Origin: Bacteroidetes/Chlorobi group bacterium MS-B_bin-24
GTDB taxonomy: Bacteria > Bacteroidota > Ignavibacteria > Kapaibacteriales > UBA2268
NCBI GenBank assembly: GCA_003731685.1
Contig: RCNO01000009.1
Span: 18,047-73,320 of the forward strand
Reading direction: 5' to 3'
Length of the DNA: 55,274 bases
Below the pieces are notes generated by a model. It did not search any database and was not told the DNA's origin. It saw only the letters and a program-made list of their open reading frames with translations. The stretch's first letter is position 1. Every line of letters begins with the position of its first letter. Made by a program: the position numbers and the translations under genes. Below, piece after piece: positions 29,963 to 36,648 of this stretch.

Positions 29963-32224
29963 TTATTGGCGAACCAAGCGAATAGTTTCTGCTATTGTTT
30001 TGCATTCACCAAATCTGATTGTAAATTCGCGAACCTGATACCCTTCGGCAGAAACCCGTATAGAGTATGTTCTTGGGGCACATAAATTATACGCAACAGC
30101 CCAACCTTCGGAATTAGAAACCGGGTCGGCGATATTTGTTCCTTCATACCTAACTATCACTCGAGCTCCAGAAATTGCTGTTCCAGTTGAATCATCCAGT
30201 ATCTTCAACTTCAAAATAGCGGTGCAACAGGTATCGCTCGAAGGAACTAAATATTTCACCAATTCTTTTGTTTCGTTGCAACCTAATTCAAATTCAAATT
30301 CTTTGGAACGATAGCCAGACTTCGACATCGAAATAGAATATTTACCAGAACAGATTTTTTCGAAAACTACGCGACCATTTTCGCCAGTTGTGCTAACAGC
30401 AATTTTCTGTGAGCCATACCAAAGCCTAACTTCGACCCCGGCAATTCCTTGACTGTTCGTTGTGTCTTTAACATACAAAATTACTTTGCCATTGCAACAA
30501 GTATCCTTCCGTTCGGATTCAAGATATTTTGTGATTTCAATTGTATCGTTGCAGGCGAATTCCAAAGAAAACTCAATAGTTTTATATGTATCCTTAATGA
30601 TTGAAAAGCAATACTCGCCGGGACAAATATAGCGAAAGATTGCTGAACCATTCGAGACAGTTTCCAAGCGAACAACAGCGCCATTTTTCCACATCTTTAC
30701 ATTTGCACCATTAAGACTTTTGTTAGTTTGTTTATCCTTAACGTGGACAACAAGTAACCCATTACAGCAAGAATCGTTTTCAGTTCTTTGAAGCACTTGT
30801 GTAACTATCTTTTCTTCGTTGCATCCTAACTCGACAGCAAATTCAATATGCTTGTACCCTTCCTTGAAAATATCAAATCCATACTTACCTTGGCATAGGT
30901 TCTTAAAGATAACGTAGCCGTCTGAGTTTGTTGATGCACTATCCAATTTTTTCCCATCTTTCCAGATAATTACCAAGGCTTGTGGTATAGGTTGATTTTC
31001 GTGGTTTTTAACAGCAACTTTAATTGCTCCTTTACAGCAACTATCGCTGTGAAGTGCTTCGAGAGTCTTTGTAACAGATTTTTCTTCATTACATCCTATC
31101 TCGACTTGAAATTCAATTGCTTTGAAACCATCTTTACTGATGGAAAATCCATAAGTTCCTTTGCAAAGGTCACGGAAAACGACAACACCATCGTCGTTGG
31201 TTAAGTAATATCCAAGTTGAATTCCGCCTTTCCATATTGAAACTTTTGCCTGTGGAATTGGATTCCCCTCACTATTCTTGACAATGACACGGAGAACACT
31301 ATTACAGCAAGTATCGACTTCGAGAACTGTTGAAATGAATGTAGAATCATTGCATTCAATTCTAACATTTCTTTCCAAAGGTTTATAGCCTTCTTTATAA
31401 ATCAAAAGGCTATATTCTCCCGGGCAAAGTTCACGGAAAAACACAGGCTTGTTTCCTTTTACCGTTAAAGTTTTTAATAAAGTTCCCTGCTTTCGAAGTT
31501 TAACGATGGCACCATTCAAAAATTCACCGCTCCCGTTTTTCACTTCAACTCCAATTATCCCACGACAGCAGGTATCTGTTTCTCTTCGATTCAAATAAAA
31601 ACTAAATTCCAAAGTATCGCAATTTTGCAGATTGAACTCTCTTTCGATGACTTGAAAGCCTTCTTTGGCAATGCGTACCCAATAACTTCCAGAGCAAACC
31701 TTTTCAAACACAAGAACACCATTGTCATTGGTTTTGCTCTTGCGAACCAACTCATGTCCACGATTCAATCTCACTTCAACATTGCCCAAAGCCGATGAGT
31801 CCGATGTGTAAGTATGGATTATAATTTTCCCGCAACAATGGTCATCGTGTTTTAAATGCACTCGTAATTTCCGTTTGTCCTGATTTTCAAGGATTTTCAA
31901 CAGAAATTCTTCGAAAACACTAAAATCCTTATGGACAATTCGTAATTTCAACGAGCCAAGGGGCGAAGGAAGATTTTTCAACTCGAAATTCCCTTCTTCA
32001 TCGGTTGTATCGGTCACAATTACCAGCTCGGAAACAAGAATATTAGTTTTCCCATCGGAAATTTTAACCACATTTATTATGGCATTGGGCACAGGATTAC
32101 CTTGTTCATCGTATAAAGTTCCACTGAAAATATTCTCTTCGGTCGTTTGGTTTGTAGTTTCATTACAAGAGGTAAAGAATAGAAAACTTAAACCCAAAAA
32201 GAACAAATAGACAAACTTTTTCAT
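29963..32224 (-). CDS. Large lipoprotein with seven cysteine-rich 90-residue domains
   Basis: The start at 32224 (MKKFVYLFFL) has AGGGGG just upstream and gives 753 residues; the longer open frame is not needed. The signal peptide ends FFTSC, so it is a lipoprotein. Residues about 30-125 form a carboxypeptidase-regulatory-like domain without cysteine. Then come seven domains, each opening with D(S/T/H)CC, with a further Cys in a (L/I/V)C(S/P/K/Q)G(E/K/T/S)Y motif and a fourth near (G/E/A)CN(E/D). They resemble PEGA/CarboxypepD_reg beta-sandwiches. Surface exposure and disulfide bonding are inferred. A terminator follows. Confidence 0.75.
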   Translation of the reverse strand: MKKFVYLFFLGLSFLFFTSCNETTNQTTEENIFSGTLYDEQGNPVPNAIINVVKISDGKTNILVSELVIVTDTTDEEGNFELKNLPSPLGSLKLRIVHKDFSVFEEFLLKILENQDKRKLRVHLKHDDHCCGKIIIHTYTSDSSALGNVEVRLNRGHELVRKSKTNDNGVLVFEKVCSGSYWVRIAKEGFQVIEREFNLQNCDTLEFSFYLNRRETDTCCRGIIGVEVKNGSGEFLNGAIVKLRKQGTLLKTLTVKGNKPVFFRELCPGEYSLLIYKEGYKPLERNVRIECNDSTFISTVLEVDTCCNSVLRVIVKNSEGNPIPQAKVSIWKGGIQLGYYLTNDDGVVVFRDLCKGTYGFSISKDGFKAIEFQVEIGCNEEKSVTKTLEALHSDSCCKGAIKVAVKNHENQPIPQALVIIWKDGKKLDSASTNSDGYVIFKNLCQGKYGFDIFKEGYKHIEFAVELGCNEEKIVTQVLQRTENDSCCNGLLVVHVKDKQTNKSLNGANVKMWKNGAVVRLETVSNGSAIFRYICPGEYCFSIIKDTYKTIEFSLEFACNDTIEITKYLESERKDTCCNGKVILYVKDTTNSQGIAGVEVRLWYGSQKIAVSTTGENGRVVFEKICSGKYSISMSKSGYRSKEFEFELGCNETKELVKYLVPSSDTCCTAILKLKILDDSTGTAISGARVIVRYEGTNIADPVSNSEGWAVAYNLCAPRTYSIRVSAEGYQVREFTIRFGECKTIAETIRLVRQ
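30224..31837 (-). repeat. tandem protein-domain repeat, seven units with 261-270 nt period
   Basis: The vicinal Cys-Cys codons of the seven units lie at 31832-31837, 31565-31570, 31304-31309, 31034-31039, 30764-30769, 30494-30499 and 30224-30229. The steps are 267, 261, 270, 270, 270 and 270 nt. Units differ widely at base level, so this is an old domain amplification, not recent slippage. Confidence 0.85.
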
Positions 32225-32464: not shown

Positions 32465-32860
32465 TTATGAAAAAACAATAAACTTATTACCTAAGCTAAA
32501 CAAAATCAAACCTGGCTCATTCTTTTCTTTTAAAAAAACAATTAAATCTTGTAAGTTTACTACATTAATATTGCACTGATTTTTACGGACTTCTACGATA
32601 AGATTTTCAAATCTTTTTATCCACTTTCTAATTGTATTTCGACTCACTCCAACATACTTTTCAATCTCGCTTATCCCCAAACCTTCTAAATACAACTGAA
32701 GTGCTTTGACAATATAATTATTGTCAACTCTTTTCCCAAGTTTATTTACTGTAAAATGGTAATTACATTCTTTGCATAAGTAACGTTGCTGGCTAATAAT
32801 TTTCCCATTTTTAACAATTTTTGAAGCCCTACACCTTGGGCACCTAATAGCTGTGTCCAC
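32465..32860 (-). CDS. Orphan IS1-like (InsA-type) zinc-ribbon/HTH protein
   Basis: 131 residues. Cys7, Cys10, Cys29 and Cys32 (CPRC and CKEC) form a zinc ribbon like that at the start of IS1 transposases, followed by a helix-turn-helix near residues 60-85 (GISEIEKYVGVSRNTIRKWI). The last 35 residues look like the first strands of the DDE domain, but the expected catalytic Asp is not apparent and the frame then stops. No InsB-like frame follows and no terminal inverted repeats were seen. It is either a transposase remnant or a co-opted DNA-binding protein. Confidence 0.6.
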   Translation of the reverse strand: MDTAIRCPRCRASKIVKNGKIISQQRYLCKECNYHFTVNKLGKRVDNNYIVKALQLYLEGLGISEIEKYVGVSRNTIRKWIKRFENLIVEVRKNQCNINVVNLQDLIVFLKEKNEPGLILFSLGNKFIVFS

Positions 32861-33016
32861 TCAAATTTTATAGAAAATATATTAATAACAGCCTTGAAAT
32901 GCTAAATCCCAATCAAAATATACTGAAAGGACGGGGTCACAAACATTACCAGAAAAAGGCTCACGCCAGGTTATACTTCTACTAGCAAGGTTATAAACAG
33001 CTCTTCGACCTGGACA

Positions 33017-33355
33017 TCATGGATCGTTACATATAACTATTTGCATATTAACTAATTTAACAGCTTTATCACAGGGAAAGTTGTCGAAAACAGCAAGCGA
33101 TTCTGGATTTTGTTGAGGAGAAAGATTAATAGACGAGCGTGGTTTCAACCTTCTATATTCACCCCTGTCGACAGCATCTAAATCCTCTTTTTTCCCTTCC
33201 CAAATGTTAATATGGGATTCACAGACCTTTAACCCTGCTGGCAAATTTGCTAATCGAAAAGTAATTTTACAATGAGAACAGCTGCCACACTTTAGCCCAA
33301 GGAAAGAAAAAATTACAGATAAAAACAAAAATAAAATAATTATTTTCTTGCCCAT
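33017..33355 (-). CDS. Small exported cysteine-rich protein; frame continues beyond a UGA
   Basis: 112 residues with a hydrophobic signal segment, then Cys23, Cys26 and Cys29 (KCGSCSHCK), and later VCESH, NFPCD and VICNDP. No family recognised. After the TGA at 33017-33019 the same frame stays open for another 44 codons to a TAA at 32882-32884 and keeps a protein-like composition with three more cysteines (CPGRRAVYNLASRSITWREP is the first part). So the gene may be broken by a nonsense change, contain a sequence error, or recode UGA. It lies downstream of a lipoprotein gene on the same strand. Confidence 0.5.
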   Translation of the reverse strand: MGKKIIILFLFLSVIFSFLGLKCGSCSHCKITFRLANLPAGLKVCESHINIWEGKKEDLDAVDRGEYRRLKPRSSINLSPQQNPESLAVFDNFPCDKAVKLVNMQIVICNDP

Positions 33356-36220: not shown

Positions 36221-36580
36221 GGGGATGAAATGGCTTCGACGGGGTGAAGGAGGCTTGTAGTGGCATACCGTGCTTTGCCGTGGCTGCACGTAAATCCAAA
36301 CGGCAAACAAAAAATGCCGAAAGCAATTACGCTTTGGCTGCCTAATTAAGTAAAGCAGCCCATCTGTCGGAAAACTTGCCTATCGGTTTTCCGATGGGTG
36401 TCGCATTTAGATAGGCTGGCAAATGGATTTTTCGGTTGCTCCATTTGCGACAAATTCAACCGATAGCCTTTACGAAACCTGTCGTTCGGTTCGCGTAAAG
36501 GCGAAATTCAAAGAACGACTAAGTATGTAGGCACTACAGTCGAAACACTCCGGACGCGGGTTCAACTCCCGCCATCTCCA
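36221..36580 (+). ncRNA. ssrA: tmRNA (transfer-messenger RNA)
   Basis: Rescues stalled ribosomes. The 5' end GGGGATGAAATGGCTTCGAC and the 3' end GCGGGTTCAACTCCCGCCAT then CTCCA are the conserved tRNA-like ends; GGGGATG pairs with CATCTCC. The 3' CCA is not encoded after the discriminator A. The tag frame ends with codons for NAESNYALAA followed by TAA at 36343-36345, giving the ALAA degron read by ClpXP. Internal stems for pseudoknots, such as TCGGTTTTCCGA-like pairs, are visible. The resume codon could not be fixed by eye. Confidence 0.96.
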
Positions 36581-36648
36581 CAAAATATAATCCATCCAAA
36601 TATTTCACATTTTCTTTCAATTTTCATTGTAGAAATAAAATTTATTGT

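Follow-up and report, generated by a model that had tools for sequence, protein, structure and literature searches.

The window, by which we mean the whole stretch of 55,274 nucleotides that was analyzed, carries on its minus strand a gene that starts with an ATG at 32224, ends with a stop at 29963, and encodes a 753-residue protein. In the following list, the signal peptide was read directly from the sequence, domain 0 was placed by a Pfam match and its cysteine count, and Cys domains 1 to 7 were delimited by cysteine positions and alignment, with a structural model in addition for the fourth.

29963-32224, minus strand: whole gene, encoding a predicted lipoprotein (753 aa) with one Cys-free and seven four-Cys transthyretin-like domains
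32165-32224, minus strand: signal peptide and lipobox, FFTSC at residues 16-20, Cys20
31856-32134, minus strand: domain 0, Cys-free and regulatory-like, approximately residues 31-123
31589-31855, minus strand: Cys domain 1, with C130, C131, C177, and C202; register shifted by one
31328-31588, minus strand: Cys domain 2, with C219, C220, C267, and C291
31058-31327, minus strand: Cys domain 3, with C306, C307, C354, and C378
30788-31057, minus strand: Cys domain 4, with C396, C397, C444, and C468; modeled alone
30518-30787, minus strand: Cys domain 5, with C486, C487, C534, and C558, plus an unpaired C539
30248-30517, minus strand: Cys domain 6, with C576, C577, C625, and C649
29966-30247, minus strand: Cys domain 7, the C-terminal cap, with C666, C667, C715, and C741
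29342-29875, minus strand: small lipoprotein with a C-x-C motif, a possible redox partner (a lead only, from its motif and adjacency)

The CC pairs of the seven Cys domains start at residues 130, 219, 306, 396, 486, 576, and 666, which gives spacings of 89, 87, 90, 90, 90, and 90 aa, in exact agreement with the original prediction of a lipobox, one Cys-free domain, and seven CC domains at intervals of 267, 261, 270, 270, 270, and 270 nt. Two further cysteines had been noted at set places in each domain, and they are found in all seven. The third (C3) lies 47 to 49 residues past the first, in a (V/L/I)C-x-G motif that is replaced by LCAP in the seventh domain, and the fourth (C4) lies 24 to 26 residues past the third. 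Outside this scheme are two cysteines, the lipobox C20 and, in Cys domain 5, C539. Counting against complete pairing, the 29 cysteines past the lipobox are an odd number; by a rough count, in which truncated frames are included, the same is true of 22 of the 70 frames of the family. Seven CC pairs did not occur in any of 20,000 shuffles of the protein sequence (the maximum was six), even though no spacing was required. Since the seven Cys domains share 21-55% pairwise identity, they are diverged repeats, and in a search of its own genome at E ≤ 0.01 the protein matched only itself. When aligned with four same-genus orthologs and one family-level homolog, 24 of the 28 cysteines of the scheme are invariant, and the remaining four are all in the fourth Cys domain, where one ortholog (L007) is one domain shorter. 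Close homologs lacking these cysteines would have refuted the original prediction; the same-genus orthologs retain them.

Domain fold and position of the cysteines

That the domains are regulatory-like, as originally proposed, was borne out by a Pfam scan of the whole protein, in which CarboxypepD_reg (PF13620) matches eight stretches with an E value of 1.1e-58 and a score of 195.9 bits, well above the curated cut-off of 32.3. Cys domain 4 alone scores 31.6, just under that cut-off. The related models SpaA, SdrD_B, and PEGA match the protein as well, and in a set of 58 single domains 55 are matched by PF13620 and 49 by SpaA at E ≤ 0.01. An AlphaFold2 model of Cys domain 4, computed with an alignment of 57 homologous domains, has a pLDDT of 95.4 and a pTM of 0.85 and displays seven β-strands (residues 10-17, 28-33, 36-42, 48-54, 57-64, 71-77, and 82-88). 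The best structural matches of this model are closely tied and, as for the full chain, include transthyretin-like and CnaB domains. SleC (9h68) comes on top, with a Z of 13.1 and an rmsd of 2.1 over 89 aligned residues; the tied best also include the transthyretin-like domain of carboxypeptidase D (5aq0; Z 12.1, rmsd 1.4, 77 aligned) and CnaB domains such as 8bdw (Z 12.1, rmsd 1.7, 83 aligned). As judged from both profile matches and the model, the domains are CarboxypepD_reg/CnaB-like, that is, transthyretin-like, seven-strand β-sandwiches. Structure prediction, which had been proposed for a single domain and for the full chain, delivered the former but not the latter: the full-chain AlphaFold2 model has a mean pLDDT of 83 and a pTM of only 0.31, so it predicts the domains and not their mutual arrangement.

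In the model of Cys domain 4, the vicinal pair (C1 and C2) occupies residues 7-8, ahead of strand A (10-17), while C3 (residue 55) falls between strands D and E and C4 (residue 79) between strands F and G. From the directions of the strands, all four cysteines would lie at one pole of the domain, where the chain enters from the previous one. Cysteines placed far apart would have refuted the original prediction; the predicted topology, which speaks of topology and not of distances, gathers them at a single pole.

Family distribution and paired loss of cysteines

A profile search, suggested at the outset as a way of finding relatives, reveals that the four-Cys pattern does define a family, with a homolog at E ≤ 1e-10 in 57 of the 149 relatives' genomes searched, its own included. 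The named collection yielded 19 loci, of which 17 were kept, labeled as Ignavibacteria/Ignavibacteriae (six), Kapabacteria/Kapaibacterium (four), Bacteroidetes bacterium (five), bacterium (one), and Chloroherpeton (one); the other two, L075 (Thiogranum) and L077 (Tannerella), were discarded because the frames read there show no CC pair. The family searches covered this phylum only. With the seven-domain profile at E ≤ 1e-12, 10 of 395 genomes sampled across the phylum match, all in the window's class, and matches outside that class in the same sample are weaker (best 8.2e-11). Within the class, 64 of 391 genomes match at that threshold, again counting its own. Ten loci of other classes yielded nine homologous domains, with no domain match in L050, and none has the four-Cys scheme: eight are Cys-free and one (L058) has two cysteines, one of them at the C3 place. 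Because the pattern recurs in many relatives, CC-C-C is, as far as sequence comparison can tell, the mark of a real family, a variant of a common domain type.

The fate of individual cysteines was followed in 93 family proteins from 92 loci, of which 23 were removed as 90% redundant, leaving 70 representatives with 454 complete domains (of 463; nine were left out as incomplete), aligned with an HMM built from the same loci to which it was applied. These domains comprise 357 with four cysteines, 56 without any, 17 with one N-terminal Cys and C3, 16 with one N-terminal Cys and C4, and eight with other patterns. All but one of the 56 Cys-free domains (55) are the first domain of their protein. 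Among the eight others, which were left out of the two-Cys count, five have a cysteine near the C4 place just beyond the scored columns (L141, L145, L016, L011, and L030) and three are true exceptions (L092, which reads NCNCC and has no C4, L108, and L103); the L021 frame, which begins mid-domain, was also odd in an earlier count.

All 33 domains with a single N-terminal cysteine retain exactly one of C3 and C4, and which one they retain is predicted by register. In gap-free distance, the lone N-terminal cysteine is five residues ahead of a fixed point in strand A in 17/17 domains that keep C3, and six (11 domains) or four (five domains) residues ahead of it in 16/16 that keep C4. Register thus predicts the retained partner in 33 of 33 cases (Fisher p 9e-10, with descent ignored); the 33 domains are related by descent and, by our estimate, represent about five separate losses. 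Positions 4 and 6 of an extended strand point one way and position 5 the other, and the pattern is therefore what one would expect to remain if a vicinal pair had formed two disulfides, each with a different hairpin. Both kinds of keeper occur in first Cys domains (13 with C3, five with C4) and interior domains (four with C3, one with C4), and last domains include 10 C4-keepers. On either side of the 33 stand four-Cys or Cys-free domains or the array end, and never half-lost domains, which argues for bonds within each domain.

The common register, found in 311 of the 357 four-Cys domains, implies C1-C4 and C2-C3 bonds inside the domain, to judge from the alignment. In the shifted register (46 of 357), to which the window's first Cys domain belongs as judged by a gap placed in the alignment, C1 and C2 would exchange roles. 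The best-kept columns of the 357 domains are C1, C2, and C3 (100%, by selection), followed by a Tyr (97%) and a Gly (92%). The seven domains very probably carry the same two disulfides. The original prediction had offered two disulfides per domain or a metal site, and the paired loss favors the former over the latter; a ring disulfide between C1 and C2 was also considered and was rejected on the same pattern.

The number of four-Cys domains per protein varies from 1 to 10 among the 70 representatives, truncated ones included. Within the genus, domains are collinear (L002-L004), and L007 has one fewer. Compared with L005 and L009, the array is fixed toward its two ends (domain 0 and Cys domains 1 and 2 on one side, the last domain on the other) and not in between. 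L015 retains domain 0 and Cys domain 1 along with the last domain; in L020 the last domain and a single interior one are retained, and in L017 the first Cys domain only. A fixed base and cap are thus not universal in distant relatives, L017 and L020 being the departures, and the C-terminal domain holds its position in L002-L005, L007, L009, L015, and L020 but not in L017. This is consistent with, but does not prove, a rod in which length changes occur mainly in the middle. Fibrillar adhesins combine a ligand-binding tip domain with stalk domains; here the best candidate for a tip would be the C-terminal domain, and no separate adhesin domain was found among the 25 Pfam families listed for the protein. 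The long stalk of the original prediction is therefore a reasonable reading, given the variable domain number, although its placement at the surface did not fare as well, as the published export signal is lacking (see below).

Envelope location and possible routes of cysteine oxidation

With its signal peptide and lipobox cysteine, the protein is a bacterial lipoprotein by sequence, and a lipobox is recognized under a loose rule in 65 of the 70 representatives. Bacteroidota lipoproteins destined for the surface carry K-(D/E)2 or Q-A-(D/E)2 soon after the lipobox cysteine, and the minimal Capnocytophaga signal requires two acidic residues (PMC5080379). The protein has CNETTN and departs from this signal, which was established with members of other classes of Bacteroidota. 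At least two acidic residues are found at positions +2 to +6 in 25 of the 65 relatives with a lipobox. Within the genus, the gene sits between what we take to be a penicillin-binding-protein-like gene and the gene for the C-x-C lipoprotein, with a presumably glycosyltransferase-like gene beyond on the opposite strand; in most other genera, the neighborhood is different. Close upstream in the window is an IS1-family transposase N-terminal-like fragment (32465-32860, minus strand; E 2.4e-22, under the family cut-off), and the upstream gap is shorter than 90 bases in L002, L003, L004, and L007. Further along, a small exported Cys-containing ORF (32882-33355, minus strand) is broken by one in-frame TGA. 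Selenocysteine was considered for this codon and rejected: in 60 genomes the ORF has one match besides its own, and since this same-genus copy (G003) holds an internal TAA, a decaying gene is likelier. The window also contains a tmRNA gene (36221-36581, plus strand) with the tag peptide AESNYALAA.

No VKOR, Thioredoxin_4, DSBA, or DsbB profile matches the protein's own genome, which is 98.82% complete, and each of these profiles matches 3 to 9 of 14 control genomes. Among the 57 genomes with the family, DSBA is found in 12, VKOR in two, and neither in 44. If anything, DSBA is less frequent where the family is present (12/57 genomes) than where it is not (34/92; p 0.05). A search of a partial literature collection for DsbA, DsbB, or VKOR in Bacteroidetes returned no paper. 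Either another catalyst acts, or oxidation is unaided, or the bonds never form. The small C-x-C lipoprotein, whose gene adjoins that of the repeat protein in the window as well as in four further genomes of the genus, has no Pfam match and only weak NCBIfam matches (E 0.12 and 0.17). Its motif, kept in 8/8 loci read (CNC, CAC, and CSC), would make it thioredoxin-like and a possible disulfide oxidase or isomerase. Relatives occur in 51 of 60 genomes, namely in 33/37 with the repeat protein and 18/23 without (Fisher p 0.28). As a dedicated disulfide enzyme it was rejected on this count, and since it is found whether or not the repeat protein is, it is no more than a lead. Another lead only is a cluster of exported proteins encoded downstream of the repeat protein in L064, L065, L072, and L076 and upstream in L062, with Thioredoxin_7 matching both members scanned (L064 and L062). 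In the former four loci, ABC-2 transporter genes and the Thioredoxin_7 gene follow on the same strand, the families having been checked in L064. That these bacteria oxidize a fourteen-disulfide protein without DsbA, DsbB, or VKOR, through an undescribed catalyst such as the adjacent C-x-C lipoprotein, strikes us as unlikely; if true, the repeat protein would be a natural substrate exposing a new oxidative folding route.

Taken as a whole, the protein is probably a lipid-anchored, exported chain of eight transthyretin-like domains, seven of them doubly disulfide-stapled, that forms a stiff rod. Its place in the envelope is less certain. The same stapled rod might be no surface stalk but lie inside the periplasm, where it would serve as a scaffold or spacer linking the outer membrane to the cell wall or inner membrane. 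This is a serious rival because the published export signal is not found in CNETTN, and one with which the adjoining penicillin-binding-protein-like gene is consistent. However, this neighbor is not shared by most other genera and acidic residues do follow the lipobox in the 25 relatives mentioned, and we regard a periplasmic rod as a distinct possibility, short of being probable.

The absence of canonical disulfide catalysts could also mean that the bonds are not there. The domains could be ordinary regulatory-like ones whose cysteines stay reduced and merely reflect shared descent, which would agree with the lack of DsbA, DsbB, and VKOR matches in the protein's own genome and of both DSBA and VKOR in most others with the family. 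Yet the four cysteines are the best-kept positions across the 357 domains (C1, C2, and C3 by selection) and vanish in pairs, which makes this quite improbable. Even less probable is that the four cysteines of each domain make up a metal site or a redox-active thiol site, in a protein that would store metal or handle electrons. The predicted gathering of four cysteines at one pole would suit it, as would the missing catalysts, but a four-ligand site should be kept or lost whole, and 33 of 33 domains have lost one N-terminal and exactly one other cysteine, as register predicts; the paired loss rules against such a site.

A putative stapled rod and its known relatives

In the preferred reading, that of a disulfide-stapled rod, a lipid anchor would hold an exported chain of eight transthyretin-like β-sandwich domains. 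In seven of these, the vicinal C1 and C2, on the entering segment at the start of strand A, would each reach a hairpin at the same pole: C1 would bond with C4 of the F-G hairpin, and C2 with C3 of the D-E hairpin. These staples would likely lock each domain and its junction with the preceding one, and the outcome would be a stiff, protease-resistant rod whose length is altered by gain or loss of domains, above all in mid-array. If true, this would be a Gram-negative answer to a problem that many Gram-positive stalks solve by isopeptide bonds, using the same fold but locking it with a pair of disulfides at one pole. Natural variants with two cysteines would provide a ready-made test of the role of each bond. 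With the usual disulfide catalysts missing by profile search in most genomes that encode the protein, oxidation of envelope proteins in this group would also become testable.

The closest likeness in sequence is to CarboxypepD_reg (PF13620) and CarbopepD_reg_2 (PF13715), with which the domains share the profile matches and seven-strand sandwich described above. C3 falls in the usual L-P-x-G-x-Y motif. The nine homologous domains read outside the class, unlike the domains reported here, are without the four-Cys scheme. The Gram-positive stalk domains CnaB, SpaA, and SdrD_B (PF17802, PF17210) are alike in fold, tandem use, and variable domain number. In many stalk domains of this kind, an isopeptide bond between Lys and Asn/Asp, formed with a catalytic Glu/Asp, provides a cross-link. 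Such a bond was considered and rejected, since the 357 domains have no conserved Lys/Asn pair, with no Lys or Asn column above 60% identity; their acidic columns include one Asp at 81% and one Glu at 85%. Disulfides have been published for some SpaA_2/3/4 and CLIPPER domains (PMC12617251).

The transthyretin-like domain of metallocarboxypeptidase D (5aq0, 1qmu), among the tied best structures (Z 12.0-13.6, rmsd 1.2-1.4), is a single accessory domain of an enzyme, in contrast to the tandem array seen here. NOMO, from the BOS complex, is the best PDB sequence match to the domain profile (E 1.2e-13 for the chain, with no single stretch passing alone). It is a eukaryotic ER protein with tandem domains of this type; in the aligned segments shown, and unlike the present domains, it lacks a cysteine at the C3 place. 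We know of no described family with a vicinal four-Cys scheme, and a full-text search of a partial literature collection returned no paper on such a scheme in transthyretin-like or CarboxypepD domains. The fold, its tandem use, and the idea of a stalk are known from CnaB/SpaA/SdrD proteins and CarboxypepD_reg repeats; the vicinal four-Cys scheme is what sets the present domains apart.
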